This document shows positions 6,679-39,664 of a stretch of 64,000 nucleotides of DNA, one piece after another. The DNA comes from Rhodobacterales bacterium (lineage in GTDB: Bacteria; Pseudomonadota; Alphaproteobacteria; Rhodobacterales; Rhodobacteraceae): contig JAPLPE010000018.1 in NCBI GenBank assembly GCA_026400355.1, positions 1 to 64,000 on the forward strand. The letters are read 5' to 3'. The position numbers and the translations under genes were made by a program. Each line of letters begins with the position of its first letter. Position 1 is the stretch's first letter. The notes below the pieces were generated by a model that saw nothing but the letters and a program-made list of their open reading frames with translations, made no database searches and was not told where the DNA came from.

Positions 6679-6681
6679 AGC

Positions 6682-7821: not shown

Positions 7822-7836
7822 GCCACCGCTTTCCCG

Positions 7837-9777: not shown

Positions 9778-9787
9778 GCGTGCATCC

Positions 9788-11243: not shown

Positions 11244-11293
11244 GGGTGGTCCTGTCCCCTGTCAGCCGGGGCCGCCCACCGGCCCCTTACCGC

Positions 11294-12487
<1,194 letters not shown>

Positions 12488-12581
12488 TCATGGCCTGTTG
12501 ACTGCATGGCTCGAAAGGCGTCAGGTCACCTTCGCGTGACGGCCCGTCTGACGACCGCCCTGATCCAAGGCCAAGGCGGCC

Positions 12582-13847: not shown

Positions 13848-13955
13848 ACACCCTGCTCTCGCGGAAGTAATCTCAACGCTGCGAAAAGCGTGCCCAAATT
13901 TTGCCAGAAACACATTGGATACGTTCCGGAAACAAAGAAACCGGGCAAAGAAGAA

Positions 13956-15065: not shown

Positions 15066-15206
15066 AACGGCCGTCGGGTCCAACGCCCCTGGACTGCCCC
15101 CACTTGGCTGCTGCCTCCCGGAAAGATCCTCTCGGTGGTCGTGGACCTTGCCCTTGGCACGGCCCTCGGCCACGATTCCGACCCGCGCGACCAACAGCCT
15201 GAAGGA

Positions 15207-16841
15207 TCAGGCCCCCATATACCGCCGCCGCGCGATCTGATCCTCAAGGCTCAGCCACCGTCGCCCGGCCTCGTCATCCGCCCGGTGCGCCGCCGCCCGC
15301 CCCTGAAGCGCCCGCAGGCGCTCCGGGTCCATCGCCTGCTGCGCGTCCAGTTCCTCGGCAATCGCCACGAAGTCTTTAGCCGCCTCAACACCCCCCAACA
15401 AAGGTGCTGCCGTCTGGTCCACAAAATCCTCCCACAGTAGCCGGGGGTTCCATGAAAACTGCGCAAAGCCCAGATAGGACAGCTCCACCGTCGCATGATA
15501 GGGCGACGGCTCTCCCCAGATCGTGAGCCCGTCCATCCCCGTCCGGTCACAGACCCGCGCCATATCCCCAAACACCCGCGCGTTCAGCGCATAGCGTTCT
15601 GTCCGGTCGTCCCCGTTCCATTGGCAGGCAAACTGGCAACGCAGCACATTGGGCTGCGTCGGCAGGGTTGCCACATAATCCCGGGTCAGACCCTGCTGGA
15701 TACGCCCCCAATAAGTCCGGTTCGTCGTGTGCTGATAGATGCCGCCCTTCGGCAACTTGCGCTGCGCCGCATGGGCCACAGGGTCCAACAGATTATCCCA
15801 CTGGATCTCCGAGTAGATCCAGAGATCCGGTTTGATCGACTTGGCCCGTGCATAAAGCCGCGGAAAGTTTTCGGCCATATCCGTATGCGACCAGTAATCC
15901 CCGTAGGTATCCCGCCGCCGCGCCGCCTCGGCCGGGTTGTCGCGCCGCAACTGGCACCGCTCACACCCGCAGACGCCGTAATCACCTGCCTCGATATTGA
16001 TCCCGCCGATATCAAAGGTCTCGGTCAGCCACTGAACCCCGTCCTCCATCCACCGGATCGTCTCGGGTGCCGAAGGGCAGGCCGACAGGGTGTAATCCGA
16101 CTTTGGAAAGTTCAGCGGAAAGGCCAGATCGGAAATCTGGAACCCCACACCCTTTTCCAGCGTTGCCGCGTGCTGCGGGTTGGCCCGCAGCCAGTTGGCA
16201 AGGTTCCACTGGCTGTTCCCCTCCCAATAGACCCCACCATAACTGCCGATGGCGATACCCGGCAGGATGCGCACTCCGCGTTCGGTCGCATAGCGGCACA
16301 GGTCCTGCGCCGCCTCGACCCCGCCATGCGGATCGCGCAGGAACCCATAGATGACGACCGCCGCAATCCGGTTCTTCGAACAGAAATCAACGACCCGCTT
16401 GTAGTCGCGCAGAAACCCGTCCGGTGGCTTGCCATAGGGGTTGAAGACGCCGATCTCCTGTTGGCCGATCTGCGACAGTTCCCAGTTCGTCGAATGATCC
16501 CATGTCCAGAACGTGCGATAGGTCAGTCCCGGCGTCTCGTCGATATCCGCCTCGGGCAGAACCATCCGCCCCGGATGATGCCCACCCCGGCCGATCAGGT
16601 CCTCGACCCCGAATATCACCCCCGAAAACGGACCGCCCGTCACGGTCACATTGACCCCGTCCCGGACGACCCGATAGCTGCCCTCTTTGCTGTCCGGATC
16701 GGTGATCAAGGTCAGAGCCGGCCCATCCCCCGGTCCCGGGACCCAGTCAATCTCTGGAAAGGACGCCCTCAGCCGCCGCAGCGCATGAGGATGCTCCGCA
16801 CCACCGAAAACATGAACCTGCCCCGACAGATACCGTCCCAT
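15207..16841 (-). CDS. Glycoside hydrolase-like TIM-barrel protein
   Basis: A 544-residue cytoplasmic protein without signal peptide; a GGGGAGGA ribosome site precedes the ATG at 16841. The first 90 residues resemble the small alpha/beta domain found before the catalytic barrel in GH67/GH20-type enzymes. The barrel part includes RTFWTWDHSTNWELS, AAVVIYGFLRDPHGG, RGVRILPGIAIGSYGG and GGINIEAGDYGVCGCERC, whose Cys pairs suggest a metal or structural site, and GLTIWGEPSPYHATVELSYL. I cannot assign a family or substrate with confidence; an alpha-glucuronidase-like or hexosaminidase-like enzyme is the best guess. No sugar genes lie beside it. Confidence 0.5.
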   Translation of the reverse strand: MGRYLSGQVHVFGGAEHPHALRRLRASFPEIDWVPGPGDGPALTLITDPDSKEGSYRVVRDGVNVTVTGGPFSGVIFGVEDLIGRGGHHPGRMVLPEADIDETPGLTYRTFWTWDHSTNWELSQIGQQEIGVFNPYGKPPDGFLRDYKRVVDFCSKNRIAAVVIYGFLRDPHGGVEAAQDLCRYATERGVRILPGIAIGSYGGVYWEGNSQWNLANWLRANPQHAATLEKGVGFQISDLAFPLNFPKSDYTLSACPSAPETIRWMEDGVQWLTETFDIGGINIEAGDYGVCGCERCQLRRDNPAEAARRRDTYGDYWSHTDMAENFPRLYARAKSIKPDLWIYSEIQWDNLLDPVAHAAQRKLPKGGIYQHTTNRTYWGRIQQGLTRDYVATLPTQPNVLRCQFACQWNGDDRTERYALNARVFGDMARVCDRTGMDGLTIWGEPSPYHATVELSYLGFAQFSWNPRLLWEDFVDQTAAPLLGGVEAAKDFVAIAEELDAQQAMDPERLRALQGRAAAHRADDEAGRRWLSLEDQIARRRYMGA

Positions 16842-16910
16842 CCCGCGTCCTCCCCTGGCCCGGGATCACCCTAGAAACTCAGCCCCACCCTGTCCAGCAA
16901 TGCCAAAAGG

Positions 16911-16946
16911 CAAGGGGGCCGTACGCATCTTGCGCACGGCCCCTTG
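16911..16946 (-). terminator. Hairpin downstream of leuA
   Basis: A long stem (CAAGGGGGCCGT paired with ACGGCCCCTTG, with CGCA/TGCG extending it towards a 3-base loop) lies about 90 bases after the leuA stop. Only a short T run (CCTTTT) follows on the minus strand, so termination strength is uncertain. A second imperfect 10-bp hairpin (16990-17020) lies between it and leuA. Confidence 0.55.
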
Positions 16947-17031
16947 TCCAACCTGAACCGCCAAAACGGAACAGCCGCTCCGAAGCGCCACCCAGGATTA
17001 TTCCCGAAGGAATCTTGGGTCCGCCCCCCTT

Positions 17032-18594
17032 TCAGCCGGCGTCCTTGTAGCTCACGCCCTTCGTATCCGCCCCTGGCGCCGATTTCTCGCGCCGCACAAG
17101 AAGACGGTTGATCGCGTTCACATAGGCCTTGGCGCTCGCCAACACCGTATCCGTATCCGCCGACTGCCCCGTCGCAATCCGCCCGTCCTCTTCCAGCCGG
17201 ACCGACACGGTCGCCTGTGCGTCCGTGCCCTCGGTGACGGCATTCACCTGATAAAGTTGCAGCCGCGCCTTGATCGGGAACAAAGCCTTTACGGCCTTGA
17301 ACGTCGCATCGACCGGCCCGTCGCCCGTCATGTGAACCGTCTTTTCTTCCCCGTCGATCTCCATCGTCAGGTCCGCCGTCTGCGGCCCCTCGGTCCCGCA
17401 GACCACGCGCAGGGTCTTGATCTTCAGCCGGTCCTCGGCCGCATCGTTCTGCCGGACCAGCGCGATCAGGTCGTCGTCATAGACTTCCTTCTTGCGGTCG
17501 GCGAGGTCTTTGAACCGCACGAACACGTCGTTCAGCTGGTTGTCCGCCAACTCGAACCCCAGGTCCCTGAGCTTGGACCGCAGGGCCGCGCGCCCGGAAT
17601 GCTTGCCCATGACAAGGTTCGTCTCGGACAGCCCGATATCCGTCGGCCGCATGATTTCGAACGTCTCGGCGTTCTTCAGCATCCCGTCCTGATGGATGCC
17701 GCTTTCATGCGCAAAGGCATTCTTGCCCACAATGGCCTTGTTGAACTGGACCGGGAACCCGCTGACCGTGGCCACCCGGCGCGAGATGTTCATGATCCTG
17801 GTCGAATCCACCCCCGTCCGGTAGGGCATGATGTCATGCCGCACCTTCAGCGCCATCACGACCTCCTCGAGCGCGGTATTCCCTGCCCGCTCGCCCAGCC
17901 CGTTGATCGTGCATTCGATCTGCCGGGCACCGGCCTCGACCGCCGCAAGCGCGTTCGCCGTCGCCATCCCAAGGTCATTGTGGCAGTGGGTTGCGAAGAT
18001 GATCGTATCCGCCCCGGGCACCCGCTCCAGCAGCATCCGTATCAGGTCAGAGCTTTCGCGCGGCGCCGTATAGCCCACGGTATCGGGAATGTTGATCGTC
18101 GTGGCCCCGGCCTTGATCGCGATTTCGACCACCCGGCAAAGGTAATCATGTTCCGTCCGCGTCGCATCCATCGGCGACCACTGGACATTGTCACACAGGT
18201 TGCGTGCATGGCTGACCGTATCATGGATGCGCCCGGCCATCTGGTCCATGTCCAGATTGGGGATCGCCCGGTGCAGCGGCGAGGTGCCGATGAACGTATG
18301 GATACGCGGGCTCTTGGCGTGGCGCACGGCCTCCCAGCAGCGGTCGATGTCCTTGTAATTGGCCCTTGCCAGACCACAGATCGTGGCCCGCCCGGTCAGC
18401 TTCGCGATCTCGGATACCGCCTTGAAATCGCCTTCCGAGGCGATGGGAAACCCCGCCTCGATGATGTCTACACCCATCTCGTCCAACAGACCCGCAATCT
18501 CGATCTTTTCGTCATGGGTCATCGTGGCGCCGGGCGACTGTTCGCCGTCACGCAGCGTGGTGTCAAATATCAGCACGCGGTCTTTGTCGATCAT
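17032..18594 (-). CDS. leuA: 2-isopropylmalate synthase
   Basis: A 520-residue enzyme that condenses acetyl-CoA with 2-oxoisovalerate in the first committed step of leucine synthesis. The catalytic barrel shows LIFDTTLRDGEQSPGATM, the metal-binding HCHNDLGMATAN, NGLGERAGNTALEEVVMAL and HESGIHQDGMLKN. The C-terminal ~130 residues form the leucine-binding allosteric domain (ALFPIKARLQLYQVNAVTEGTDAQATVSV region). Start at 18594 has an AGGAGA ribosome site 9 bases upstream. A leader peptide with a Leu-codon run and a strong hairpin precede the gene, so regulation by attenuation is likely. Confidence 0.98.
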   Translation of the reverse strand: MIDKDRVLIFDTTLRDGEQSPGATMTHDEKIEIAGLLDEMGVDIIEAGFPIASEGDFKAVSEIAKLTGRATICGLARANYKDIDRCWEAVRHAKSPRIHTFIGTSPLHRAIPNLDMDQMAGRIHDTVSHARNLCDNVQWSPMDATRTEHDYLCRVVEIAIKAGATTINIPDTVGYTAPRESSDLIRMLLERVPGADTIIFATHCHNDLGMATANALAAVEAGARQIECTINGLGERAGNTALEEVVMALKVRHDIMPYRTGVDSTRIMNISRRVATVSGFPVQFNKAIVGKNAFAHESGIHQDGMLKNAETFEIMRPTDIGLSETNLVMGKHSGRAALRSKLRDLGFELADNQLNDVFVRFKDLADRKKEVYDDDLIALVRQNDAAEDRLKIKTLRVVCGTEGPQTADLTMEIDGEEKTVHMTGDGPVDATFKAVKALFPIKARLQLYQVNAVTEGTDAQATVSVRLEEDGRIATGQSADTDTVLASAKAYVNAINRLLVRREKSAPGADTKGVSYKDAG

Positions 18595-18640
18595 TTCCGG
18601 ATATCTCCTGTCCTCTGGTCCCTTTGTCCGGCGCCGGTTC

Positions 18641-18676
18641 CCTCTGAGCGGCCGCGCCGAAGGGCACGCTCAGAGG
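18641..18676 (-). promoter_or_regulatory. Attenuator-type hairpin before leuA
   Basis: A perfect 10-bp stem, CCTCTGAGCG / CGCTCAGAGG, begins at the stop codon of the leucine-rich leader peptide and ends 46 bases before leuA. No T run follows. Its 5' arm (CCTCTG) could instead pair with a CAGAGG just upstream of the leuA ribosome site, offering an alternative fold. It may act by termination or by controlling access to the ribosome site; which one is not decidable by reading. Confidence 0.65.
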
Positions 18677-18753
18677 CGGCTAAGGAGAAGAAGCACGATC
18701 AGGCTCAGACCCGGCAGGGCCACAAAGGACATATGAGGAGCGCTGAAAGACAT
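18670..18753 (-). CDS. leuL: leuA leader peptide with four consecutive Leu codons
   Basis: A 27-residue frame starting at the ATG at 18753 (MSFSAPHMSFVALPG...) has seven Leu codons in its second half, including an uninterrupted Leu4 run (LIVLLLLSRL at the C-terminus). The stop codon lies inside the 5' arm of the hairpin 18641-18676. This is the architecture of amino-acid attenuators: ribosome stalling on the Leu codons when charged tRNA-Leu is scarce would change folding downstream. Leader peptides upstream of leuA are established in alphaproteobacteria. The frame is too short for most gene callers. The symbol is by analogy. Confidence 0.7.
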   Translation of the reverse strand: MSFSAPHMSFVALPGLSLIVLLLLSRL

Positions 18754-18915
18754 GATGCGGATTTATACCCGGCTTTCCCCGGATGAAAAGCAGATTCTCG
18801 GGGGGCCGATGTGGACGGGGCTCTGCCCCTGCCTTCGGCCCCAAGGGGGTATTTGGACAACAAAGAAACCAAAGAGCGGTCTGGTCGAAAGGGTCTGTCC
18901 CACTAGGTCAGGTCC

Positions 18916-19581
18916 ATGGACAGGGCATTGGTCATCGGCGCGTCGGGCGGCATCGGGCAGGCGGTATCGGCCCGTCTGCGGGCGCAGGGGGCTGATGTGA
19001 CCGGGCTCAGCCGGTCTGATGACGGGTTTGACGTGACCGACCCAACCTCGGTCGAGCGTATCCTTGGCGGGGTCGCGGGGCCGTTCGACCTGATCTTCGT
19101 GGCACTCGGCATCCTTGCTCCGCCGGGCGGCGCGCCGGAAAAGACGCTGGCCGCCATCGACGCCGCCGCCATGGCGCATGTCCTTGCCGTCAACACGATC
19201 GGCCCGGCCCTGATCCTGCGCCATGCCACCCGGCTGATGCCCCGGGACAGGCGCGCCGTTCTGGCAGTTTTGTCGGCCCGGGTGGGCTCCATCGGCGACA
19301 ACCGGATCGGGGGCTGGCACAGCTACCGCGCCTCGAAGGCGGCGCTGAACCAGATCGTCCACGGCGCCGCGATTGAACTGTCGCGCAGCCACCGCCAGTC
19401 CGTCTGCGTCGCGCTTCACCCCGGCACGGTCGCCACGCCCTTTACCGCCGACTATGCGGGGCGCCACGCGACCGTCCCGTCGGACAAGGCGGCGGCCAAC
19501 CTGCTCAATTTGATCACTGACCTCACCCCCGCCCAGTCCGGCGGTTTCTTCGACTACAGCGGGGCCACTGTTCCGTGGTAA
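18916..19581 (+). CDS. Short-chain dehydrogenase/reductase, C-factor-like
   Basis: A 221-residue classical SDR. The NAD(P)-binding motif is VIGASGGIGQAVSARL, the catalytic Ser-Tyr-Lys set is in VLSARVGS and YRASKAALNQ (note S-Y-R-A-S-K), and the C-terminus carries HPGTVATPFT. Its stop overlaps the start of the photolyase gene by 7 bases, so the two are cotranscribed and translationally coupled. This SDR-photolyase pairing recurs in Rhodobacteraceae. The substrate is unknown; a link to folate or lumazine cofactor chemistry is only speculation. Confidence 0.88.
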   Translation: MDRALVIGASGGIGQAVSARLRAQGADVTGLSRSDDGFDVTDPTSVERILGGVAGPFDLIFVALGILAPPGGAPEKTLAAIDAAAMAHVLAVNTIGPALILRHATRLMPRDRRAVLAVLSARVGSIGDNRIGGWHSYRASKAALNQIVHGAAIELSRSHRQSVCVALHPGTVATPFTADYAGRHATVPSDKAAANLLNLITDLTPAQSGGFFDYSGATVPW

Positions 19582-26238: not shown

Positions 26239-26313
26239 TGGGGCGTGGCCAAGTGGTAAGGCATCGGTTTTTGGTACCGTGTACCGTAGGTTCGAATCCT
26301 ACCGCCCCAGCCA
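26239..26313 (+). tRNA. tRNA-Gln (anticodon TTG)
   Basis: The sequence folds as a complete tRNA: acceptor TGGGGCG paired with CGCCCCA, anticodon loop TTTTGGT-type with anticodon TTG, T loop GTTCGAATC, discriminator G and an encoded CCA at 26311-26313. The 3' 20 bases also serve as the left attachment site of the island that begins here. Confidence 0.95.
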
Positions 26314-26507
26314 GTACTCTTCCGGATAGCTGTGACCTTGTTTCCTTACCCTGAGGGTGGGGAAAGTGCCCTGAGAAATGCCTCAGGTTCGGGTAGGGGT
26401 TCGGGTGGGGGAAGAACTGGAACTGGGTGTCGCTAACCCTCTGTATAATTGGTATAAGTAATGCATCCGGCGGCTCTCAGGAGGTCCAGCCGATCTTCCC
26501 GTTCCCC

Positions 26508-28037
26508 CTAGACAGAACCCCCCGAAGCAGCCTGAAGAGCCCTCTCATGAGCCTCCAGCCGCTGAAGATACCCTTCAGACCGGGCTGTCTGCCTCCAGAT
26601 GATGAAGTCCAGCTGAACTTCGCGGGAGTGCTGACCCATGGTGTCGAGGCTGGGGCCTGAGGCTTCAACGCGAAGTGGGTAGCCCAGCTGTTGACGGGAG
26701 ACGTCGGCCAGCATCCGAGTCAGCCGTTCTACCTCATCATAGGCCACGATGAAGCTGTCGTGGACACAGAGAACGGGGATTCCTGCGGCGGTGTAATCGT
26801 CGAGAATCCGTGCGGCGATGCAGCTGTCGAGGTACATCAAGCGGATGCCCTGATCGGAGCAGAGTCTGTCTGCAAGGTGGGGGTGCTTGGCGATGAAGGC
26901 GTCAAGCAGCCGTTCCAGATCGGTGTTCACGAGGTTCTTCGCCATATGACCTGTGGGCCAGCCGTTGCGAAACGCTGAGAAGGCAGACTTCCGGTCGCGG
27001 GCATTGATCGCCGTGAGCACCAGTTGCTTGATCAGCGCCCGTTGCAGCACATCGGGAGCACCGGGAACAAGGCCAGCAGGCAGCTCGTATGGATCACCTT
27101 GGAGTTCGACCCCCTGTTCAAGGCTCAGCATCGAGACATGCATGCCCTTGAAGTCGATCTCAACGGTTGGCTTATCGTTGATGAAGATCTTGGACCGGTA
27201 CTGCTTGCCGACCTGCTGCCACCATCCCCCATAGAACCGCCCGTTCTTGTTCCAGGACCCCCGGCTGAAGATGCGACGAACGAAGGTCCTTGATGATCCA
27301 GTCGGAATCCGGATCGTGCGGCCCGCATCCTTCCCGGTGGTGATGACCCGTTCCACAAACCCTTCTTCCAGTTCCGGAATGTCGATAAAGGTACGAGAAA
27401 GCAGGGCGTTATAGGCCCGGAGCCGTCGCCGCATCTCGTTGGTTGCATCGGTATCGGTGTACTCGACGAGCTTCGTGCCCTCTTCCTCAGCATCCGCTTC
27501 TTTGAGGATAAGGCACTCCTGATCGGGGTGATGCCGAATGTCGCTCAGGCTTAGCTCGTGATCCCGGAACAGGTCAGCAAGGGGGGCCGCTGCACGGATG
27601 CGGGTGTTGCGATTGGTGGTCGCAAACGGGCCGCCATAGCTTCCCGGTGCAAGGTCGATGAGTTCGAGGGCATGCAAGCGCCGGACCAGTTCGGTGATCT
27701 TCCGGGTCAGATGAAGGGCATTATAGCGGGAGTTCCCGTCCCAGCCGTTTGATGACATCGGAAGACCGATTGAAAGCTCGGGGTCCTCCAGCCATGCAAC
27801 GTAAAGGTCCAGCACGAGAACCTTTAACTGATTGAGATAGCTGGTCTTCGGCTTGGGACCGGGGCGGGATTCCTTCTCGGCCAGATCGCGCAAGTAGGTC
27901 TCCCAGATGCGGATAGCCAGTGCGATCGCCGTCGGATGGTCAGACCAACGATGAACATCAATGGGACGGGAGTGCCACGGGTTCGCGATGGCCTTGGGCT
28001 TGGGTGCCGGTTCGGGCGCTGCGTCAGGACCGGTCAT
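26508..28037 (-). CDS. Palm-polymerase-like protein of a mobile element
   Basis: A 509-residue protein I do not recognise as a named family. Three motifs in order resemble the A-family polymerase palm (DNA polymerase I and T7-like RNA polymerases): motif A-like VEIDFKGMHVSMLSLE (Asp295), motif B-like RALIKQLVLTAINA (Arg333, Lys337, with Asn where Tyr is usual) and motif C-like VLCVHDSFIV (His426, Asp427), the last closest to the HDSF motif of T7-type RNA polymerases. A conserved-looking GRFYGGWWQQVGKQYRSKI block precedes motif A. The first 60 residues are Pro-rich. It starts 33 bases after the methyltransferase stop, with an AGGAG site. A truncated relative lies at 36257-36615. Replication initiator or primase-like roles are inference. 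Confidence 0.55.
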   Translation of the reverse strand: MTGPDAAPEPAPKPKAIANPWHSRPIDVHRWSDHPTAIALAIRIWETYLRDLAEKESRPGPKPKTSYLNQLKVLVLDLYVAWLEDPELSIGLPMSSNGWDGNSRYNALHLTRKITELVRRLHALELIDLAPGSYGGPFATTNRNTRIRAAAPLADLFRDHELSLSDIRHHPDQECLILKEADAEEEGTKLVEYTDTDATNEMRRRLRAYNALLSRTFIDIPELEEGFVERVITTGKDAGRTIRIPTGSSRTFVRRIFSRGSWNKNGRFYGGWWQQVGKQYRSKIFINDKPTVEIDFKGMHVSMLSLEQGVELQGDPYELPAGLVPGAPDVLQRALIKQLVLTAINARDRKSAFSAFRNGWPTGHMAKNLVNTDLERLLDAFIAKHPHLADRLCSDQGIRLMYLDSCIAARILDDYTAAGIPVLCVHDSFIVAYDEVERLTRMLADVSRQQLGYPLRVEASGPSLDTMGQHSREVQLDFIIWRQTARSEGYLQRLEAHERALQAASGGSV

Positions 28038-28070: not shown

Positions 28071-30818
28071 TTATCGTTTCGCGTCCTTCATAGCCTCAAC
28101 CACTTCAATCGTCTCGACGGAAACGCGGGTCACACGGGCCAGCAGATCGGCGAGCTGCTCCTTGTAGTCGGCGAACCGATAGGTGTTGAACTTCTCCCGG
28201 ATCGTTTTGTCCTTGGGCGTCTTCTCTTTGTACTGTTCCAGCACCCATTCAAGGCCGGAGCGGTTGCCAAGGCGATAGGCCCAAGCCGACGCGGGGATAC
28301 CGGATAGGGTCGTTTCGCTGTCCAGCGTGATCATCCCCTTCGACTGATCGGCCTTCAGGGCTGCCTTGGGCTTCAGCCCTGCTGCCTTTGCCTTGCGGTC
28401 GGGCGTGTCATGGCGGTGAAGGGGCCATGGTGCCACTGTTTCATAGCCAATGTGCAGGTCCATCAAGTGCTTGCCCCACGCGGTCCATTGCGGAAAGTCG
28501 GGGTAGAAGGGCAGACGCGGGAACTCTCGCCGCAGGTTCAGTGCATAGGTTTCCCGGTAGATCGGGTCGTGCAGGACGGCATAGGTGTAGTGGAAGATAT
28601 CGTCCTTGGTAATCGGCACGAACGGACCATAGTGGGCGGTGAACTGGCCCAGCGCCCAATCTGTGATGTTGTCGATCCGTTCGCCCGATGGGGTGTAGCG
28701 GTATAATGGAAGGCAAGACGCCCCGGAAGCAGCACCGACGAGGTGCATATCAACGACGACGTTTGCTGCCATGACCATAAAGGGCTTCTGCGAAGTTGGA
28801 TCGGTGAAAGCAATCAGGCGGTTGTCTAGATCGCCGTCCGCTCCGAAGAAAGTACGTGTTTGGTTCAGCATCTCAATGAGGGGCGGAAAGAACATCAACT
28901 TGCGCCGATCGAACGGCCTGTACTGGCAATCTAGTACTTGCTCGTCGGTGATCTTCATTGGGACCCCCGATATCAGGCTTCGTTTGACCGCTCTTGTCCA
29001 TTTTATCTGTTCGTCACGCTCTGTCTCTTGGCGTTCTTCCAGAAGTTTGCCGCGCTGGGCACGCCGCTGTGCTTCATAGTGCTTGACCAGATAGGCCACC
29101 TTCTTGCGAAGGTCCCTTTCATCAAGGTCGTAAACCCAGTCATCACGGTTCGTGACAAGCCCGAAGCTGAACTGCTTGAAGATTGATCGATCTTGTCTGA
29201 CAACCTTGGCTGCCTTCGTTGCTTTATCTCCGATAGATATGAAGACGTCCCACGAGTTTTTGCTGTGGTTGATCCAGTTCGAGGCCGCATCCGGCTCAAC
29301 CCAATCATAAGCAATCTGGGACGCCTTGGTCTGACCTAGCCATGCAAGCTTGTCCTCTGCAGTGTCGAACTCGGGCCTTCTGGCATAGTGAATGGTGCAT
29401 CCTTTAAGCTTGGGATTTCGTACCATAAAGGAGATCGCCACCCCGGTCTGGATGCCGAAGACGTTGTTCTTGGTCCCCGAGAGCTTGGGGTTCGCCCGAA
29501 CATCCCCTCCCAGATCAACGACATAGACCTCGTTGAACTCCTGCCCCACGAACTTCCTGAACCCATCGAAGGTGCGGCTGTCGATGAAGCTGCGGTTCGT
29601 GATGAAGGCGATGATCCCCTCGTCGTGTAGCCTGTCCGAAGCCCAGCGGAAGAACCGGGCATACATGTCGTAAACCTTGGTCTTTTGCGCGGTGGAAAGC
29701 TTGACGAAGCTGCGCCGGATCAGGTCGTCGATCCGCTTATACTCGCGGTTCTTGTTGTTATCGTTCTCATTCTGCTGGTTGGCGTTATAGGGCGGGTTGC
29801 CGATCACGACCGAGATCTTCCGCGTGTTCTGCCGCTTGACCCGTTCCACGTTTTCCTCGGTCACGGCCCCGAACAGGTCGGCCTGATAGCCTGCTTTGAT
29901 CCCCAGCCCCGCCACGTTATCCAGAGTGTCCACGAAGCAGAGATTCAGGAACTCGGCATACTGGCCAGACACCGCCGCATAGGTTGCCTCGATGTTCAGG
30001 TTCGCCACGTAGTAGGGCAGGATCGCCACCTCGTTGGCGTGCAATTCCTCCTTGTATTTCTGGTGCAGCCGGTCCGGCCGCCCCCGGAAGGACTCGATAA
30101 GTTCGCAGATGAACGTGCCCGTTCCGGTGGCCGGGTCCAGGATGTCCACGCCGCTGTCGATCAGGTTCTTCCCGAAGTGTTTGTGGCAGAGCCAGTCGGC
30201 CCCTTCGATCATGAAGCGCACGATCTCGTTCGGCGTATAGACCACGCCCAGCCGGTCGGCTGCCTTGGGGTTATAGACCTTGTAGAAGCTCTCGTAGATC
30301 ACCTTCAGGAAGGTCTGCTTCTCGGAATGGCTGGTGATCTGGGACGCGTTAGTCTTGATGGCTGTGTAGTAGGGCTGCATCGCCTTGAGGGTGTCTTTCT
30401 TGACCGCCCCAGTGAAGAACGCCTTCTCCAGCTTGAACAGTTCCTGCGCGATGTTGTTTTCCTGATGGAACTGGCCCCCGTCAAAGACCTGAGTGAAGAT
30501 TTCCTCGGTCAGGATGTGCTGGATCAGCATCTCCCGGATATCGGCCTCGGTCAGAGAAGGGTTGATCGTGTCCTGTGCATGGACGAGGAACTTCTTTGCT
30601 GTGTCACGGAATCCTGCATTGGTTTCATAGGCTTCGTTGATCCGTTCCCGCAGCCCTTCCAGCACGGCGGGAAGATCGGTCTTGAACTGCTGGACGGCCC
30701 GGCGGAACTCAGCAATCTCGGGGCGTTCGTAGCTGAAGAACAGGTTCAGCAGCTTGCCCAGTGCCACGGTGTCGGTCATGCCGCAACGCATCACCTCATG
30801 GCGGTTCTGGTAGAGCAC
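28071..30818 (-). CDS. Type ISP/Eco57I-like adenine methyltransferase, N-terminus lost
   Basis: A 915-residue frame (GTG at 30818) matching the methyltransferase and target-recognition part of single-chain type ISP restriction enzymes. Motif I is DILDPATGTGTFI (about residue 226), motif IV NPPYN (341-345), and the opening RHEVMRCGMTDTVALGKL is normally internal, following a nuclease-helicase region of several hundred residues. Coding similarity continues upstream of the GTG (ELGIRKKLHKGYPQDNIIFE) until it runs into the repeat at 30881, where an in-frame stop follows at 30915-30917. So the helicase/nuclease part has been removed. Methylation without cleavage is possible; expression of the remnant is unproven. 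Confidence 0.8.
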   Translation of the reverse strand: MLYQNRHEVMRCGMTDTVALGKLLNLFFSYERPEIAEFRRAVQQFKTDLPAVLEGLRERINEAYETNAGFRDTAKKFLVHAQDTINPSLTEADIREMLIQHILTEEIFTQVFDGGQFHQENNIAQELFKLEKAFFTGAVKKDTLKAMQPYYTAIKTNASQITSHSEKQTFLKVIYESFYKVYNPKAADRLGVVYTPNEIVRFMIEGADWLCHKHFGKNLIDSGVDILDPATGTGTFICELIESFRGRPDRLHQKYKEELHANEVAILPYYVANLNIEATYAAVSGQYAEFLNLCFVDTLDNVAGLGIKAGYQADLFGAVTEENVERVKRQNTRKISVVIGNPPYNANQQNENDNNKNREYKRIDDLIRRSFVKLSTAQKTKVYDMYARFFRWASDRLHDEGIIAFITNRSFIDSRTFDGFRKFVGQEFNEVYVVDLGGDVRANPKLSGTKNNVFGIQTGVAISFMVRNPKLKGCTIHYARRPEFDTAEDKLAWLGQTKASQIAYDWVEPDAASNWINHSKNSWDVFISIGDKATKAAKVVRQDRSIFKQFSFGLVTNRDDWVYDLDERDLRKKVAYLVKHYEAQRRAQRGKLLEERQETERDEQIKWTRAVKRSLISGVPMKITDEQVLDCQYRPFDRRKLMFFPPLIEMLNQTRTFFGADGDLDNRLIAFTDPTSQKPFMVMAANVVVDMHLVGAASGASCLPLYRYTPSGERIDNITDWALGQFTAHYGPFVPITKDDIFHYTYAVLHDPIYRETYALNLRREFPRLPFYPDFPQWTAWGKHLMDLHIGYETVAPWPLHRHDTPDRKAKAAGLKPKAALKADQSKGMITLDSETTLSGIPASAWAYRLGNRSGLEWVLEQYKEKTPKDKTIREKFNTYRFADYKEQLADLLARVTRVSVETIEVVEAMKDAKR

Positions 30819-30880
30819 GGCGGTGTGGGAGTTCTCGAAGATGATGTTGTCCTGCGGATAGCCCTTATGGAGCTTCTTCC

Positions 30881-31294
30881 GGATTCCCAGCTCTTCGAAG
30901 AAAAGACTCGAGAACTAGAACCGAAGACACCGTTTAGGGCAGTTCCTGAGGCAGTTCGGGACCGTCGGGAGTCGCTGGTGGCCGACTGAAGGGGCATGGC
31001 CACAGCCCGCTAACATCCCAGCCCCGGCCCCAGCCGCTAGCCCGTCGCCTCACCTCTGGCTGCCCCTGCCGCCCTTTGGCCAGCCGCCTCACCGCTACCG
31101 CTGCCCCCGCCGCTGACCCGCCACCGCCCAGCTACGATCGCTCCCCGCCGCTAGCCGAATGACTGCCGCCCCTTTCCGACTGCTGACACACCGCAAGCCG
31201 CCCCCGCCGATCGCTCCCCCGCTACCCGCCCAGCGCCCCTGAGGCCATCGGTCCTCCGTGTGGTTCTACCGACCCCCGACACACCCTGTGGTTG
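30881..31294. repeat. Element end module, copy A
   Basis: About 410 bases related to 39750-40153 (same orientation) and, over the first ~130 bases, to the reverse complement of 35920-36048. It starts GGATTCCCAGCTCTTCGAAG and ends GACCCCCGACACACCCTG. From about 31000 to 31260 the top strand is strikingly C-rich with recurring CCGCCGCT/CCGCTA motifs and has no credible gene. Here the module is fused to the truncated methyltransferase instead of to an attachment core. From 31295 to 31616 only unremarkable intergenic sequence is seen. Confidence 0.7.
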
Positions 31295-32420: not shown

Positions 32421-32894
32421 TTGAATGGATTTGAGGAAGAACCAAACTTGACCAACCAAGTGAGCAAGTATCCGGGCGAGGGATCGACCGTGATGCAGAT
32501 GCTTAGCCTTGCCGACGAATACTACTCGGCCTCGATACTCTTGATCCGACATAAAGCACATAGCCCGTCATTGTTCGCTCCTGCCCGACTCTGCGTGCTG
32601 CAGGCAATCGAAGTCTACTTGAATTCGTACCTTCTGTTTTGCGGCATGACTCCTAAGGATATCCGCACATTTCGGCACTTGCTTAACGACCGGGTAATCG
32701 CCGCCCAGAAACTTGGTCTGGAGCTTGCGCCAGAGACTCATGAAAGCCTGACGAAGCTTGAGAAGTCGCGCGAGTACCTTTTGGTCCGCTACGGGCCTGA
32801 GCGAGAAAGCGAACTGAGCGATCTGCCCGATCTGTTCAACACCCTCGACGATGTGACGCGAAAGGTTCGGAAAGTCATCCTGCAGGTGACTTAA
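32421..32894 (+). CDS. HEPN-like small protein
   Basis: Up to 157 residues, all-helical in appearance. The central part (LADEYYSASILLIRHK, FAPARLCVLQAIEVYLNSYLLFCG) looks like the four-helix HEPN/DUF-type fold, and an R-T-F-R-H sequence could correspond to a degenerate HEPN R-x4-6-H motif. The frame begins with TTG at 32421; TTG 32448 (with GAGGAAG upstream) or ATG 32493 are alternatives. In mobile elements such proteins are often antitoxin partners or nuclease toxins, but no partner nucleotidyltransferase gene is adjacent. Function is inference. Confidence 0.5.
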   Translation: MNGFEEEPNLTNQVSKYPGEGSTVMQMLSLADEYYSASILLIRHKAHSPSLFAPARLCVLQAIEVYLNSYLLFCGMTPKDIRTFRHLLNDRVIAAQKLGLELAPETHESLTKLEKSREYLLVRYGPERESELSDLPDLFNTLDDVTRKVRKVILQVT

Positions 32895-33114: not shown

Positions 33115-33288
33115 TCAGGGTAGCCCCTGTTTTAGGACGTATTCCGCCAGCCACTGCCAGTAAGCCGCCGCATCGGGAAAGCCCTGACCTCGGGCCGCCA
33201 CGTCCTCTGCCTTCCTTCTCGTCAGTTGACCGTCGTACTCCACGATGGCCGCTCGCTCCTCGAACTCCGCGATGTCGGGGATTCTCAC
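33115..33288 (-). CDS. 57-residue protein coupled to the integrase
   Basis: A small frame starting with GTG at 33288, whose GTGA overlaps the integrase stop codon. The peptide starts VRIPDIAEFEERAAIVEYDG and ends WQWLAEYVLKQGLP, a well-formed acidic helical protein. The EERAAIVEYDGQLTR block resembles small Rhodobacteraceae proteins found near phage and plasmid genes. The tight overlap with the integrase argues for real translation. Whether it affects integration or excision is unknown. Confidence 0.6.
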   Translation of the reverse strand: MRIPDIAEFEERAAIVEYDGQLTRRKAEDVAARGQGFPDAAAYWQWLAEYVLKQGLP

Positions 33289-34601
33289 GGTTCGGCCCCC
33301 GCTGGCAGGCGGATCTGGTCGATGATCGCCCGCTTCTGGTCGTCACTGATCCCGGCGGAATAAATCCCGTAGGTCAGCTGGTTCTCGGATCGGGCCGACT
33401 TATGCCCCACCAGAGACGCGGTGAAGTGTTCCGGCACACCCGTTCGCTCGCACTGGGTGATGAACCACTTGCGGGTGGAGTGGAAGCATAGCCCTGGACG
33501 GTTCAACCCGAGACGGTCGCGCAGGCTGGTGAACCGCTTGGTGACGTTGTTCACTGTCAGATCAGGGAACAGTTTCCCTTTGGCTGGGAGCCTGCGAAGA
33601 ACCCCTTCCAGAACAGGATGAACTGGAACGACCCGCTCGGCAGCATCGGTCTTCAGTTGGCGCACCCAGTTAGGCCGGATCATCACGAAGGACCCAAGGT
33701 TGCCCTTCTTGACGATGTCGTCCCTGACCAGCCCCGCTGCTTCCCCGGCACGCATCCCAGTGAACAGACAGATCAGCAGAAGAACATGCATCCACCTGTC
33801 CTTTGCTTTGAGCAGTGCAACCACTTCTTCATCGGTCAGCACAGCGTAGGGTTCTGGCCGAACTTTCCCCTCGAATCGAACTGTTCTGAAGGGGTTAGTC
33901 GCGATTTCCCCCTCGTATACGGCCCAGTCGAGGAAGTGATTGACCTGCGACCAGATACGCTTCTGGGTGCGCACCGTGATCCGATCGTTGCGCCCCTGCG
34001 AGAAGGTCAACGACTGGTCGAGGGTCATCCGGTAGGTGCGATGCGACTTGCCCAGCACCTTGGAAAGCTGGGGCAGCAGGGAGAGAAATAGCCGCCCGTC
34101 TTCCCGGTTCAGGGTGGAAAGGGGCCGTTCCCCGAACTTCGAAGCGAATAGTTCAACGGAATACCGAACACTCTTATAGCCGCCGGGTCGCAGTTCGTTC
34201 CCCCGTCGCCGGAGGTAGACCTTGGCAGCGGCATCGACCCGCGTCTTGGGCCTTTTCGTCGTGGTGGAGAAGTCTATCCCAGAGTCCACCAGAGCGGCCC
34301 GGAGGCGACCGATGGCGGCGTGGCAATCCTCCCCCCATGCGGGTGTGGCGGGTGCCGACTCTGTGCTTCTCTGGGGCGCGCTGGGCAGAGCAGCCTCGAC
34401 CCCGGCCCGTGTCTTGGCCACGAGGTCTTCGTAGCGGGCGTTGACCTCCAGAGAACGCTGGCGGGCCAGCTTCGCATCTCCGGTCTTCAGGCTTTGCTTC
34501 AGGGCCTGCGATCCGAGAGCAAGCTGAACGTCTTCGGGGTAGTTGCGGCGGTACAGCCAGACCTGACCGCTGAGATAGGCGTACTTGATCCTTATGGACA
34601 T
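33285..34601 (-). CDS. int: Tyrosine integrase
   Basis: A 438-residue site-specific recombinase. An N-terminal arm-binding-like domain (YLSGQVWLYRRNYPEDVQLALGS) and a core-binding domain precede the catalytic domain with Arg284 (TGMRAGEAAGL), Lys317, His374-x-x-Arg377 (FHSTRKWF), His400 (LVGHKSARS) and a nucleophilic Tyr at 411 or 414 (LTYGIYSAG). All catalytic positions are filled, so it should be active. It is the likely enzyme for insertion at the tRNA-Gln 3' end. It lies 1.4 kb from the 36043 junction, not next to the tRNA. Confidence 0.92.
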   Translation of the reverse strand: MSIRIKYAYLSGQVWLYRRNYPEDVQLALGSQALKQSLKTGDAKLARQRSLEVNARYEDLVAKTRAGVEAALPSAPQRSTESAPATPAWGEDCHAAIGRLRAALVDSGIDFSTTTKRPKTRVDAAAKVYLRRRGNELRPGGYKSVRYSVELFASKFGERPLSTLNREDGRLFLSLLPQLSKVLGKSHRTYRMTLDQSLTFSQGRNDRITVRTQKRIWSQVNHFLDWAVYEGEIATNPFRTVRFEGKVRPEPYAVLTDEEVVALLKAKDRWMHVLLLICLFTGMRAGEAAGLVRDDIVKKGNLGSFVMIRPNWVRQLKTDAAERVVPVHPVLEGVLRRLPAKGKLFPDLTVNNVTKRFTSLRDRLGLNRPGLCFHSTRKWFITQCERTGVPEHFTASLVGHKSARSENQLTYGIYSAGISDDQKRAIIDQIRLPAGAEP

Positions 34602-35689: not shown

Positions 35690-36042
35690 AACAGCCGAGG
35701 CCACCCCCACAGCAGCCCGCTGGAGCCCCTGAGGCCCTTGGGCATCCTCTGCTAATGCTGGCACGGAGCAGCCCTCTCTGGGCCTCTCTGAGACGCTGGC
35801 AGGGGCTCGCCTTGCAGGGCGCTGGGCAGGTCGCTGGAGGCGCTGGGCGGGTCCGTGGCTGGAGCGACAGAGCAAGCCTAACGTGGCGCTGGGCGTGGTC
35901 TGCACGCTGGGGTCTGGGGTGGGATGTTAGCGGGTCGTGGCTGTAGGCCAGCGAACCCTCCCGAAGTTCCCGAACTGCCTCAGGAACTGCCCTAAACGGT
36001 GTCTTCGGTTCTCGTTCTCGAGTCTTTTCTTCAAAGAGCTGG
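35690..36042. repeat. Element end module, copy B (inverted), beside the 36043 core
   Basis: The last ~130 bases (35920-36042) are the reverse complement of the start of copy A. Further left the sequence differs from A and C but keeps the same asymmetry: the top strand is G-rich and, on the bottom strand, GCCCAGCGCC recurs three times (around 35815-35885). No credible gene lies between 35670 and 36042. This looks like the right end of unit 1. Confidence 0.6.
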
Positions 36043-36062
36043 GAATCCTACCGCCCCAGCCA
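36043..36062 (+). other. Attachment core, junction of unit 1 and unit 2
   Basis: An exact 20-base copy of the tRNA-Gln 3' end (26294-26313). On its left lies end module B; on its right begins a left-end sequence about 90 percent like that following the tRNA. It therefore acts as right site of unit 1 and left site of a second inserted unit. Confidence 0.8.
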
Positions 36063-36615
36063 GTACTCTTCCGGATAGCTGTGACCTTGTTTCCTTACCC
36101 TGAGGGTGGGGAAAATGCCCTGAGAAATGCCTCAGGTTCGGGTAGGGGTTCGGGTGGGGGAAGAACTGGAACTGGGGGGCGCTAACCCTCTGTATAATGG
36201 GTATAAGTAATGCATCCGGCGGCTCTAAGGAGGCCCAGCCGATCTTCCCGTTCCCCCTAGACAGAACCCCCCGAAGCAGCCCGAAGAGCCCGCTCATGCG
36301 CCTCCAGCCGCTGAAGATACCCGCCGGACCGGGCAGTCTGCCTCCAGTTGATGAAGTCCAACTGCACCTCGCGGGAGTGCTGCCCCATGGAGTCGAGGCC
36401 GGGGCCTGAGGCTTCAACGCGAAGGGGGTAGCCCAGCTGTCCACGGGAGACGTTGGCCAGCATCCGGGTTAGCCGTTCCACCTCATCATAGGCCACGATG
36501 AAGCTGTCGTGGACGCAGAGAACGGGGATGTTCGCGGCGGTGTAGACGTCGAGAATCCGTGCAGCGATGCAGCTGTCGAGATACATTAGCCGGATGCCCT
36601 GATCGGAGCAGAGGC
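36063..36615 (-). pseudogene. Left end of unit 2 with truncated palm-polymerase-like gene
   Basis: This stretch parallels 26314-26870 at roughly 90 percent identity. It contains the last ~115 codons of a second palm-polymerase-like gene (frame 36257-36615, with VLCVHDSFIV intact) and then breaks off abruptly near 36615. The divergence shows a separate, older relative of unit 1, not a recent duplication. The N-terminal three quarters of the protein, including motifs A and B, are missing. Confidence 0.8.
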
Positions 36616-36812
36616 TGATGCCATTTTTTGTTCGATTGCTGAATGCCGAGCTGGAAGCGGTCCAGCGTTTTGCGATGACTCTGAGCGAACAGCATGGAGT
36701 AAAGACCGACGTTCGACGTTAGCAAGGGTCATGCCACTTTGCCTGCGTTCGTCACCGACAGGCCGAGATTCTTGCAACGAACTCGCGATGAACTCTCCTT
36801 CATCCAGTTCAC

Positions 36813-36882: not shown

Positions 36883-37614
36883 ATGAGACTCATGACTTCA
36901 GTTGCAGCCGTTTTCATTGCCGGCTCCGCTTCGGCCCAGGATGCGGGCTGGCAGTATCGGTCAACCTTGTATCTCTGGTTTCCTGGCACGACGGCAAGCG
37001 TCGAGACCCCTAACGGAACCATCGAAGGTGAAGTCAGCGCAAGCGATGCGTTGCAGAGCCTTGAGATGGGGTTCATGGGAACGGTAGCGGCGCAGAACAA
37101 CAACTGGATCATCTGGGGTGATCTGGTTTACAGCGATCTCGCAGCGAGTAAGCCGACCCCCGATGGCGTTCTCTGGACCGACGCCGAAATCGGCCAGACG
37201 CTGACCACTGTGACATCCTATGTGCTGTATGACGTCGCACCCTCACCCACGACGGTTGTCGCGCTGGGGGCCGGTGCGCGGTATTTCAATCTGGGGTTCA
37301 GCACCAGCCTGTCTGGTGGCGCGCTTGGCGATGTCAGCAGCAGCTTCGACGAAAGCTGGACGGTTCCGGTGATTGCGGGCCAGTTCTATACGCAGCTGAA
37401 CGACAAGTGGTTTGTCGATGGCACGGCCGACTGGGGCATGGCCGGTGACGATACCGAGACCTGGCAGATCTATGCGGGGCTGGGCTATCGGTTCAATGAA
37501 CGCTGGTCGACCCAGGTCGGCTATCGATACATGAACTTCGTCAAGGACATCGGTGGCGACGTGCTTGACACCGGCCTGAGCGGGCTTGTTGCCGGTGTGA
37601 CGATCGAGTTCTGA
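36883..37614 (+). CDS. Outer-membrane beta-barrel protein
   Basis: A 243-residue protein with a short Sec signal (SVAAVFIAGSASAQ) and alternating amphipathic strands ending in Phe (GLVAGVTIEF), the usual C-terminal signature for outer-membrane assembly. Strand-like repeats include WQYRSTLYLWFPG, WIIWGDLVYSDL, GAGARYFNLGFS and WQIYAGLGYRF. An eight-stranded OmpA/OmpW-like barrel is likely. An FNR-type box precedes it. It lies in DNA between two inverted attachment junctions and may be cargo. Ligand unknown. Confidence 0.8.
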   Translation: MRLMTSVAAVFIAGSASAQDAGWQYRSTLYLWFPGTTASVETPNGTIEGEVSASDALQSLEMGFMGTVAAQNNNWIIWGDLVYSDLAASKPTPDGVLWTDAEIGQTLTTVTSYVLYDVAPSPTTVVALGAGARYFNLGFSTSLSGGALGDVSSSFDESWTVPVIAGQFYTQLNDKWFVDGTADWGMAGDDTETWQIYAGLGYRFNERWSTQVGYRYMNFVKDIGGDVLDTGLSGLVAGVTIEF

Positions 37615-38090
37615 GCGGCCCGGAACAAACCGTGTCGGACAGTAACTTCCGGCGGACATATCCTGAGCGGGTGACCCGGGTGCCGTGCTTGTCGGCTCCG
37701 GGTCATCTCCGTGAGACGGGGTGACTGACCTGATCCAGAGGACTCCCATGCGCAGAACAGCAGCAGCACAGCGGACTTTGGACGCTTTCGGCTTTCGCCT
37801 CTTCGCTCAGGTGGTGGAGGCAACCTCTTGCCCTGAGGGGACGCTGACAGGCACAGGTCGGCCGCCGTCCGGTCTGCCCGTCCCTTCACGTTCCCGCGAC
37901 CACCATTGTCGCTCGAAGCGATTAGAACTTGATCCGCAAGCTGTCTCAGGCGACCTTTCCGTCAATCGGCAGGTTGCTTGAGGAATGACGCCTTACTGAG
38001 AGGAGACTATCTTGACGATCTGGTCATCACGGAAAGCAGCCCCTGAACATGAAGGCGCGACGCGCCGGGTTGGCCACCCTCCCTGCCAGT
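37615..38090. other. Intergenic stretch without recognised gene
   Basis: This 476-base gap contains a hairpin with 8-bp arms (TGACCCGG/CCGGGTCA, 37672-37705) soon after the barrel gene, which could be its terminator. Bases 37944-37985 resemble 31396-31437 (shared CGGCAGG and GGAATG). Frames across the gap have no ribosome site and no family resemblance. Confidence 0.4.
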
Positions 38091-39536
38091 TCAAGGCGTC
38101 ATCTCAAAGAACCCGCGCACATCGGCGGCGAACTCGGCGCGACTGGCCTTGCGCAGATAGAACATGTGCCCGCCGGGATAGACGCCGAAGTAAAGCCGTT
38201 CCCGCGCACCCTCGGCCCGCGTCGCCTGTTCCAGCACATAGCGCGACATGAAGTAGGGCGTGACCATGTCATAAGTCCCGTGCACGACCAGCACCTTGAG
38301 GTCGGTGTTCTGCGCCAAAGCGATGCCCACGTCATCTGGCGTGCCCACGGTCGAAGCCCGGTCAAACGCCGCATTCACGGCAAGGTTCAGCGGGTAATAG
38401 GCCCGGTCGGTGACATAGCCCAGATCGGTCCGGACATAGTCCATGAAGGGCGACAGCAGGATCCCTGTCAGCACGGTCAGGCTGCGGTCCAGTACCCCGA
38501 TCCCCGGGTCCTGCGGCCGCGGATTGTCGCTGGCCTGCCCACCGTCGTAACGGTCAAGCACAAGCCCCTCGACGGCAAGCAGACTGCCCGCATAGAGCAA
38601 CTGATCGATCCGCCCGTTGTTGCGCGCCAGAAGGGCAGGTTCGATGCCGATGACCTCGCTCAGCCGGGCGAAGAAGGCCGTCTGTTCTTCGGGGGTCATG
38701 CGGCCCAGTGAGGCAAGCCCCGTCAGATACTCGTTCAGCGCGTAATCTTCAGTCGCTGCCTGTGCCGCAGCATCGGTCCCGAATCCGCCCCGCCCGTGAG
38801 AGGATGCGACGGCGGCCTGCGTGGGGATCTGGGTCATGGGGAACATGAGCGAATAGCTGTCAAAGCTCGCATCGACGTTGAGTTCGGGCGAGATCATGAC
38901 CGCGCGGTTCAGGTTGATCGAATACTGCTCGGCAAGAATGCGCGTCAGCGCCGCCACCCGCATCCCGCCATAGCTTTCCCCGGCAATCGCCTTGGGTGAA
39001 CCCCAGCGATTGTTGACCGTCAGCCATTGCCGGATGAACTGCGCAAGGGAATCCAGATCCCCCATCGTGGTGTAATAGGGCATCGGATCGCCCAAGGCGC
39101 CATCAGCGCCGGGAAGTGTCCGGCTGTATCCGGTTCCCACGGGATCGATGAAGACCAGATCGGTAAAACTGATCCAGCTGTCCGGGTTCGGCTCCAGCCG
39201 GGCCGGGACCGGGGGAAAGCTGCCGTCCCCCGCCGTGGCGATGGTCATCGGCCCGATGGCTGCCAGATGCAGAAAGATCGAGGCGCCACCAGGCCCGCCG
39301 TTCCAGACAAAGGTCACCGGCCGCGTCGCCGGGTCCGCGCCTTCGACGATATAGTCGACATGGAACAATTCGGCGTCCGGCCGCTCCGGATCGGCCCCGA
39401 CCGGCAGCATCCCGGCGCTGGCCTTGTAGTCGGGCAGGGCCTCCTGCGCCGTGGTCGACGCGGGCCAAGACGCCGCGAGACACACCAACATCAAGAAAGT
39501 TCCGAGAGCTTTCTTGATACGCGGAAGAATCATCAT
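38091..39536 (-). CDS. Secreted serine carboxypeptidase, S10 family
   Basis: A 481-residue protein with a signal peptide (LGTFLMLVCLAASWPASTTAQ). It shows the S10 oxyanion region FVWNGGPGGAS, nucleophile GESYGG, catalytic Asp in VHGTYDMVTP and catalytic His in YPGGHMFYLR. S10 peptidases remove C-terminal residues at acidic pH; bacterial members are mostly uncharacterised and periplasmic or secreted. Start at 39536 (MMILPRIKK) has a GGAG site; the frame to 39632 would hide the signal. Cargo of the island, between inverted end modules. Confidence 0.9.
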   Translation of the reverse strand: MMILPRIKKALGTFLMLVCLAASWPASTTAQEALPDYKASAGMLPVGADPERPDAELFHVDYIVEGADPATRPVTFVWNGGPGGASIFLHLAAIGPMTIATAGDGSFPPVPARLEPNPDSWISFTDLVFIDPVGTGYSRTLPGADGALGDPMPYYTTMGDLDSLAQFIRQWLTVNNRWGSPKAIAGESYGGMRVAALTRILAEQYSINLNRAVMISPELNVDASFDSYSLMFPMTQIPTQAAVASSHGRGGFGTDAAAQAATEDYALNEYLTGLASLGRMTPEEQTAFFARLSEVIGIEPALLARNNGRIDQLLYAGSLLAVEGLVLDRYDGGQASDNPRPQDPGIGVLDRSLTVLTGILLSPFMDYVRTDLGYVTDRAYYPLNLAVNAAFDRASTVGTPDDVGIALAQNTDLKVLVVHGTYDMVTPYFMSRYVLEQATRAEGARERLYFGVYPGGHMFYLRKASRAEFAADVRGFFEMTP

Positions 39537-39664
39537 TTCAAACTCCACCAATGAAACACGCGGGCACGAGCACATTAACGACTCTAGCTTAGGCGAATAC
39601 AAGGCACTGGCTAGCCCGTGGCTATGCCACACCGCTTCAGCTCACCGGACTCCCAAGAGTCCCG

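Follow-up and report, generated by a model that had tools for sequence, protein, structure and literature searches.

A TV-Pol-type polymerase of tRNA-Gln-linked elements in Rhodobacterales with inverted attachment sites and a predicted circle arranged like the yeast 2-micron plasmid

Within the 64,000-nucleotide stretch of Rhodobacterales DNA analyzed here (the window), an intact minus-strand gene (26508-28037; ATG start, 509 aa) was found to encode a TV-Pol-type A-family polymerase located in an element at a tRNA-Gln gene. On balance, this enzyme is proposed to be the primase-polymerase of the element, which would be moved by its DUF6538 tyrosine recombinase and would form a circle with two inverted attP copies, allowing flip-driven amplification similar to that of the 2-micron plasmid. 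The proposal is founded on features established by sequence comparison and structure prediction, namely the polymerase fold and its conserved residues, a +,-,+ architecture of recombination cores, homogenised repeats, the occurrence of the polymerase in both orientations, and the replacement of TV-Pol in sister elements.

The initial annotation had recognized A-family palm motifs in the 509-aa ORF, and the motifs VEIDFKGMH, RALIKQLVLTAINA and VLCVHDSF were indeed present in this order. Since they are conserved across 69 aligned relatives, they are not chance resemblances. Asp295 was kept in 69/69 and Asp427 in 67/69 of these sequences, so that the palm reading, which had been made dependent on the conservation of both residues, was upheld. 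Arg333 (67/69) and Lys337 (68/69) of motif B were retained as well, and the reported exchange of the motif B Tyr for Asn proved typical, with Asn345 in 67 relatives and Tyr in the other two. Moreover, His300 and Asp315 (67/69 each) were nearly invariant, and Gly266, Arg267, Arg281 and Glu293, absent from the earlier residue list, were invariant. The HDS of motif C was likewise near-invariant. The HDSF form had been regarded as a sign of T7-type RNA polymerases; as motif B lacks its Tyr, it is not taken here as evidence for an RNA polymerase. The family marks of a T7-like RNA polymerase were likewise lacking: matches to PF00940 (RNA_pol) occurred in only 4/69 members and below the cut-off (best E-value 0.012), and Asn replaces Tyr in motif B of 67/69.

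Searches in Pfam, NCBIfam and PADLOC yielded no family for the polymerase, and DNA_pol_A was not among the matches listed at E<=1. As previously stated, no match to a 3'-5' exonuclease was seen in the ORF. In PHROGs, the protein matched phrog_4756 (E-value 2.6e-43), an entry without assigned function. Sequence searches of the PDB with the protein or its profile returned nothing useful, a scan of viral contigs with the single polymerase sequence found nothing, and the broad polymerase alignment contained no conserved stretch usable as a scan query. In phages, 184 records contained relatives, whose identity was low (about 22-31% among the matches listed). Further relatives were detected in six plasmid or secondary-chromosome records and in 39 of the 296 same-family genomes; the genome collection comprised 77 distinct polymerase loci, mostly from Rhodobacterales. 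Short N-terminal polymerase remnants adjoin tRNA-Gln at loci L091, L095, L098, L100, L106, L107 and L108. Such remnants beside tRNA-Gln in many Rhodobacterales are apparently scars of lost elements.

An AlphaFold (AF2) model built from the window and locus sequences reached a pLDDT of 93.9 and a pTM of 0.91. Foldseek comparison with the PDB ranked A-family DNA polymerases first, led by the apicoplast polymerase (E-value 2.1e-5) and followed by Taq and Bst. In VIA-align, with matches spanning model residues of about 169-481, the apicoplast polymerase obtained a Z score of 12.9 (254 residues, 4.4 A), the yeast mitochondrial RNA polymerase 12.0 and T7 DNA polymerase 11.5. The N-terminal 167 residues searched alone gave only middling winged-helix-like matches (Z<=6.0). 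Furthermore, a profile alignment with alphaproteobacterial PolA, weak and of low probability, placed GRFY/GRLAS, EIDF/SLDYS and R-x3-K in register. The top viral structure matches were phage proteins of the same family, and the replication protein of the virophage Zamilon was a further structural match (E-value 3.5e-4). The initial annotation had named a fold lacking an RRM-type palm as evidence against its reading; since the model matches A-family polymerases and the catalytic residues are conserved, the ORF product is, as modeled, a right-hand, palm-type A-family polymerase.

TV-Pols were described in 2008 as minimal A-family polymerases of transposons and viruses (Iyer, Abhiman, Aravind, PMC2579912). 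According to that report, many originate from marine alphaproteobacteria, some possess an extra N-terminal domain, and the genes occur in linkage with lambda-type integrases, resolvases and restriction-modification genes; a role as primase-polymerases of mobile elements was proposed for them (PMC2579912). The following traits of this family were recovered in the window protein: an RRM-like superfamily A palm carrying two metal-binding Asp residues (by fold; Asp295 in 69/69, Asp427 in 67/69), an absolutely conserved beta-hairpin Arg before the palm (Arg267 in 69/69, on model strand 265-269 and aligned with the PolA GRLAS), and a fingers Asp with RxxxK (Asp315 in 67/69, Arg333 in 67/69, Lys337 in 68/69). 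TV-Pols have a thumb of two antiparallel helices; in the model, a helix (197-214) precedes the hairpin. No helicase was found by Pfam in the window element. In part of the family a D5 helicase is fused or adjacent; standalone and integrase-linked forms are listed as well (PMC2579912), so its absence is still compatible with a TV-Pol. Among the polymerase loci are those of HTCC2150, HTCC2255 and Roseobacter MED193, which resemble genomes listed in that report. A link was also sought through Microcystis phage Ma-LMM01, whose gp030 adjoins transposase genes: HMM matches in this phage were not significant, and a weak profile alignment with gp030 (P 0.005, probability 7%) paired the same motifs (VKTAVLAVING with IKQLVLTAINA). 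Taken together, the window polymerase is best filed as a TV-Pol. Because it fits this family, it represents a new member and not a new kind of enzyme; novelty of the enzyme is thereby not supported, primase-polymerase activity having been proposed for the family in 2008.

The target of integration is the tRNA-Gln(TTG) gene predicted by ARAGORN at 26239-26313 (plus strand), in agreement with the tRNA linkage noted before. Its last 17 nt, TCCTACCGCCCCAGCCA, constitute the recombination core of site 1 (attL) identified by core scan (26297-26313, plus strand). Arms were defined by self-comparison of the window, an A arm opening with the core and a B arm flanking the core's other side. The first A arm (A1; 26294-26868, plus strand) extends into the polymerase gene, of which it covers the 3' part, and is 93% identical to 36043-36617. 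Upstream of the polymerase gene, a 5'-truncated type ISP/IIG restriction-methyltransferase gene (28071-30881, minus strand) encodes coupler, methyltransferase and specificity domains according to Pfam. It matches its PADLOC model only from position 115, the N-terminal part being missing, and its frame stays open into the junction at 30881. The N-terminal part was lost exactly at this attachment-site junction, and the enzyme possibly retains methylation only. The B arm that follows (B1; 30881-31294, plus strand) is a remnant of the internal inverted site (site 2), an inverted core being expected at position 30881, where the arm is cut. The open methyltransferase frame and its missing N-terminal part imply that the A side of this site was deleted up to the core. 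B1 matched 35906-36048 in inverted (82%) and 39749-40153 in direct orientation (74%).

Between B1 and B2, a HEPN-like cargo gene (32421-32894, plus strand; PF05168, E-value 7.7e-4, below the curated cut-off) and the DUF6538 tyrosine recombinase gene (33285-34601, minus strand; DUF6538 and Phage_integrase in Pfam) were located. Homologues of this integrase occupy the same position in loci L032, L036, L038, L041, L043, L047 and L175. Site 3 (35906-36062, listed on the plus strand) comprises B2 (35906-36048, inverted relative to B1) and the core 36046-36062; it forms the right end of the first element and the start of a tandem second one. The latter is decayed. Its A arm (A2; 36043-36617, plus strand) contains, on the minus strand, a C-terminal polymerase fragment (36260-36616; residues 391-509, 92% identical) within the repeated element end. 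The relative previously reported from the end of a second unit is thus no second gene, just this 119-residue piece, and a fragment alone does not testify to a hallmark gene; the hallmark status is supported instead by the relatives in other genomes. An inverted A arm (A3; 39661-39754, minus strand; 93% inverted match to 26294-26387) with core 39735-39751 represents site 4, which is inverted, and is followed by B3 (39749-40153, plus strand) and a host mannitol dehydrogenase operon. OmpW-like and serine carboxypeptidase S10 genes (36883-39632) are enclosed by the second element's inverted A arms and are either cargo or trapped host genes. The cores of the window accordingly read + at 26297, + at 36046 and - at 39735, and at 30881 the B arm ends abruptly at the core. 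From its sequence, the window is interpreted as holding one element with a damaged internal site plus the tandem remains of a second, mostly lost element. Elsewhere in the window, a gene with internal repeats (3604-5154; several repeats of 64-77% within 3709-4993) and an inverted copy of 1445-1648 at 60337-60540 (77% identical over 206 bp) were observed.

The complete layout became apparent in relatives. Seen from the tRNA, core directions were +,-,+ in the tRNA-Gln-linked elements of G300, G304, G306, G308, G309 and G310, and five alternating cores were present in G305 (locus L037, contig C13). In the array of the latter locus, two integrase copies lie inside a 2.1-kb inverted repeat (96%). 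The integrated layout reads tRNA-core-A, polymerase segment, A'-inverted core-B, integrase segment, B'-core; in the tRNA-Gln-linked relatives, the polymerase lies within the A-bounded and the integrase within the B-bounded segment. In five complete elements, the repeats of the polymerase segment measured 343-492 bp (98-100% identity) and those of the integrase segment 94-278 bp (83-100%). The A and B repeats, respectively, were 447 bp (100%) and 136 bp (100%) in G304, 351 bp (100%) and 278 bp (100%) in G308, 343 bp (98%) and 94 bp (100%) in G306, 492 bp (99.8%) and 147 bp (89%) in G310, 463 bp (98%) and 275 bp (83%) in G300, and 307 bp (99.7%) and 124 bp (100%) in G187. Repeats of 160 and 685 bp (both 100%) were found in G483 and of 262 and 422 bp (99.6-99.8%) at locus L081; in G309 the A repeat was present and no B match was found. 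A circle with two inverted B-core-A copies requires that A of site 1 equals A of site 2 and that B of site 2 equals B of site 3. Both equalities hold in eight loci; circles of 7.3-14.1 kb are predicted.

An automatic scan detected a three-site or tRNA-anchored inverted repeat in 4/40 regions around DUF6538 integrases, 10 of which had been selected because their integrases are close to that of the window, and the rate is therefore not a population estimate; 0/20 control regions with PF13356 integrases were positive. No inverted repeat was present in the DNA examined of L033-L035 (Cypionkella/Tabrizicola-type, close to the window protein) and L063, and the inverted layout is thus not needed for every TV-Pol element.

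Could the repeats be non-functional leftovers of successive insertions at one tRNA, modified by homologous recombination? Tandem arrays are common (window, L032, L037) and many copies are decayed, as such a history would produce. Head-to-head insertion, however, inverts a whole element and would not place A..A' and B..B' around two different unique segments, and the same layout recurs with different cores and, in one single-contig genome, at tRNA-Ser. Moreover, A arms are 90-100% alike within one element and at most 64% alike between elements, which indicates homogenisation of the copies through recombination or copying, and argues against relics. This explanation is accordingly judged improbable.

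A simple inverted-repeat transposon had also been entertained and was dropped once the B repeats and a third core were found. In a more elaborate form, the polymerase segment would be an autonomous, self-synthesizing transposon with terminal inverted repeats at the tRNA end, the neighbouring integrase acting in trans. The A repeats (343-492 bp) do bound units as small as 2.5 kb holding little besides the polymerase (L036). Yet the integrase segment has core-sharing repeats of its own (L041, L038, L047, L036), the A segment holds the integrase and no polymerase in L189, L208 and L086, and target duplication at the right ends was not seen, which makes this the least probable of the readings considered.

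The same architecture was furthermore encountered with other replication genes and at other tRNAs. In the 3.7-Mb single contig of G187 (locus L175, G187:C1:3034301-3054300), a 13.5-kb element (5353-18916) shares the tRNA-Gln target, the integrase and the layout; an SF3-type DUF5906 helicase replaces the polymerase, and a reverse transcriptase is present as cargo. The three-site element at L081:13554-21219 uses a different core and carries the DUF6538 integrase in one segment and Prim-Pol plus a D5 helicase in the other. Directly upstream of it, a TV-Pol element (polymerase at 9992-11566) is located between two direct cores (4050 and 13554). At tRNA-Ser, the three-site layout occurs in the single-contig genome G483 (locus L189, G483:C1:693301-713300; 3013-10266). 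The non-integrase segment of L189 encodes an extensin-like protein together with one of 524 aa to which no family was assigned. Partial layouts were detected at tRNA-Gly (L086, L208) and at tRNA-Arg (L184, where an AEP-PriCT-DUF5906 protein is encoded). That a helicase or Prim-Pol plus D5 can stand in the place of TV-Pol in elements of the same layout suggests that TV-Pol serves replication of the circle, and, as read from gene content, favours a replication over a transcription role.

This replacement also bears on the idea of an RNA polymerase, or of a repair or defence enzyme, carried as cargo. The faint PF00940 similarity mentioned above would fit such a role. The near-invariant His300, in addition, occupies the position at which PolA has its steric-gate Glu (Klenow E710). 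In Shewanella phage KASIA (L238, 11569-12918), moreover, a homologue lies between an AAA ATPase gene and the terminase in a genome that also carries its own PolA, primase, helicase and RNA polymerase; next to a full replisome, the family may have other roles in phages. Against a cargo enzyme, sister elements carry known, non-homologous replication proteins in place of TV-Pol, and PolA-type DNA polymerases lead the Foldseek ranking; this explanation is considered unlikely.

Polymerase orientation relative to the tRNA varied, the gene facing the tRNA in some elements and the opposite way in others, with at least six changes on the tree for six minority tips, and may have changed through host homologous recombination between the repeats. 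A pure recombinational switch was also weighed, in which the inverted sites only flip the polymerase or cargo segment (phase variation) or reshuffle cargo, the circle being copied passively or by the host. Inverted sites and a tyrosine recombinase suffice for inversion, both polymerase and integrase were seen in either orientation, and the segments hold accessory genes (RM, HEPN, TerB, RT). The recurrence of three unrelated kinds of replication genes (TV-Pol, SF3 helicase, Prim-Pol plus D5) nevertheless exceeds the needs of a mere switch, to which a low probability is assigned.

For the preferred reading, replication combined with flipping, the following course is envisaged. An element at the 3' end of tRNA-Gln would be mobilized by its DUF6538 tyrosine recombinase. 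Excision across two direct cores would yield a circle of 7-14 kb with two inverted attP copies (B-core-A, about 0.4-0.75 kb), which would separate the polymerase segment from the recombinase segment, and recombination between the inverted sites would invert one segment relative to the other. Both steps, excision between direct cores and inversion between inverted ones, are inferred from the general action of tyrosine recombinases. The TV-Pol presumably replicates the circle by starting its replication, and a flip during replication would make one fork follow the other around the circle (double rolling circle), thereby amplifying copies. Excision, polymerase activity and flip-driven amplification are thus predicted steps. 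It is possible, rather than probable, that widespread alphaproteobacterial elements are counterparts of the 2-micron plasmid in general, in which a flip during TV-Pol-, Prim-Pol- or SF3-helicase-based replication results in double-rolling-circle amplification.

Comparison with known systems places the window polymerase close to the published TV-Pols (PMC2579912), with which it shares the minimal A-family format of 400-600 aa, the N-terminal domain, hairpin Arg, palm Asp pair, fingers Asp and RxxxK, as well as the setting, namely mobile elements of alphaproteobacteria in which lambda-type integrases and restriction-modification genes also occur. Inverted attachment sites and tRNA-Gln targeting, in contrast, are unmentioned there; direct repeats of about 200 nt were described for a Brucella element with a resolvase (PMC2579912). 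The CcPol-MP / PolA-SSB primases of SCC elements (Rice 2023, PMC10061031) likewise combine an A-family catalytic domain with a mobile element and an adjacent site-specific recombinase, a large serine recombinase there and a tyrosine recombinase in the window element. Primase activity was shown for CcPol-MP; CcPol needs an OB-fold partner (MP), and a helicase is encoded in the operon (PMC10061031). Neither an OB-fold partner nor a helicase was found beside the window polymerase. Self-replicating islands of the SaPI/PICI type combine a tyrosine integrase with an AEP prim-pol or a D5/SF3 helicase, and agree with the present elements in tRNA-type integration, small size and the pairing of replication module and integrase; they possess one attachment site, whereas two inverted ones are found here. 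Genes for capsid interference or packaging were not identified in the three-site elements. Strand-biased circularizing integrative elements (PMC9345347, PMC10214605) are similarly non-conjugative and encode tyrosine recombinases, whereas TV-Pol and a three-site layout are unmentioned in the abstracts of these reports. As the literature searched contained no bacterial elements with two attP sites or a 2-micron-like design, an absence that is not proof, the layout appears to be new as far as that literature shows, and represents an undescribed variant of integrative elements.

TV-Pols have been predicted to be primase-polymerases since 2008, with few direct tests in the literature searched apart from CcPol-MP. 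The present elements make a replication role testable by genetics, since they are compact, have defined ends and a recombinase, and provide natural swaps between TV-Pol, SF3 helicase and Prim-Pol plus D5.

Among known systems, the yeast 2-micron plasmid comes closest in layout: it has two 599-bp inverted repeats with FRT sites, exists as two isomers, and replicates as a double rolling circle if Flp acts once one of the sites has been copied (PMC3147054). The circle expected here would be similar in size, with two near-identical inverted repeats (0.4-0.85 kb), each carrying a tyrosine recombinase site, and two unique regions. A pair of inverted repeats with recombinase targets in one circle was deduced for eight loci; in the window copy, one side of the second site is lost and the pair is not intact. 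The elements differ from the yeast plasmid in being bacterial and integrated in the chromosome at a tRNA gene, and in encoding their own polymerase or primase-helicase, without a shown partition system. The likeness is meant as a functional analogy, and sequence homology is not claimed. The layout suggests a way in which bacterial elements could flip and amplify themselves. If the inverted sites drive amplification, a yeast-type copy-number mechanism would have been arrived at independently in bacteria, and such amplification could explain the multiplication and spread of small non-conjugative islands.
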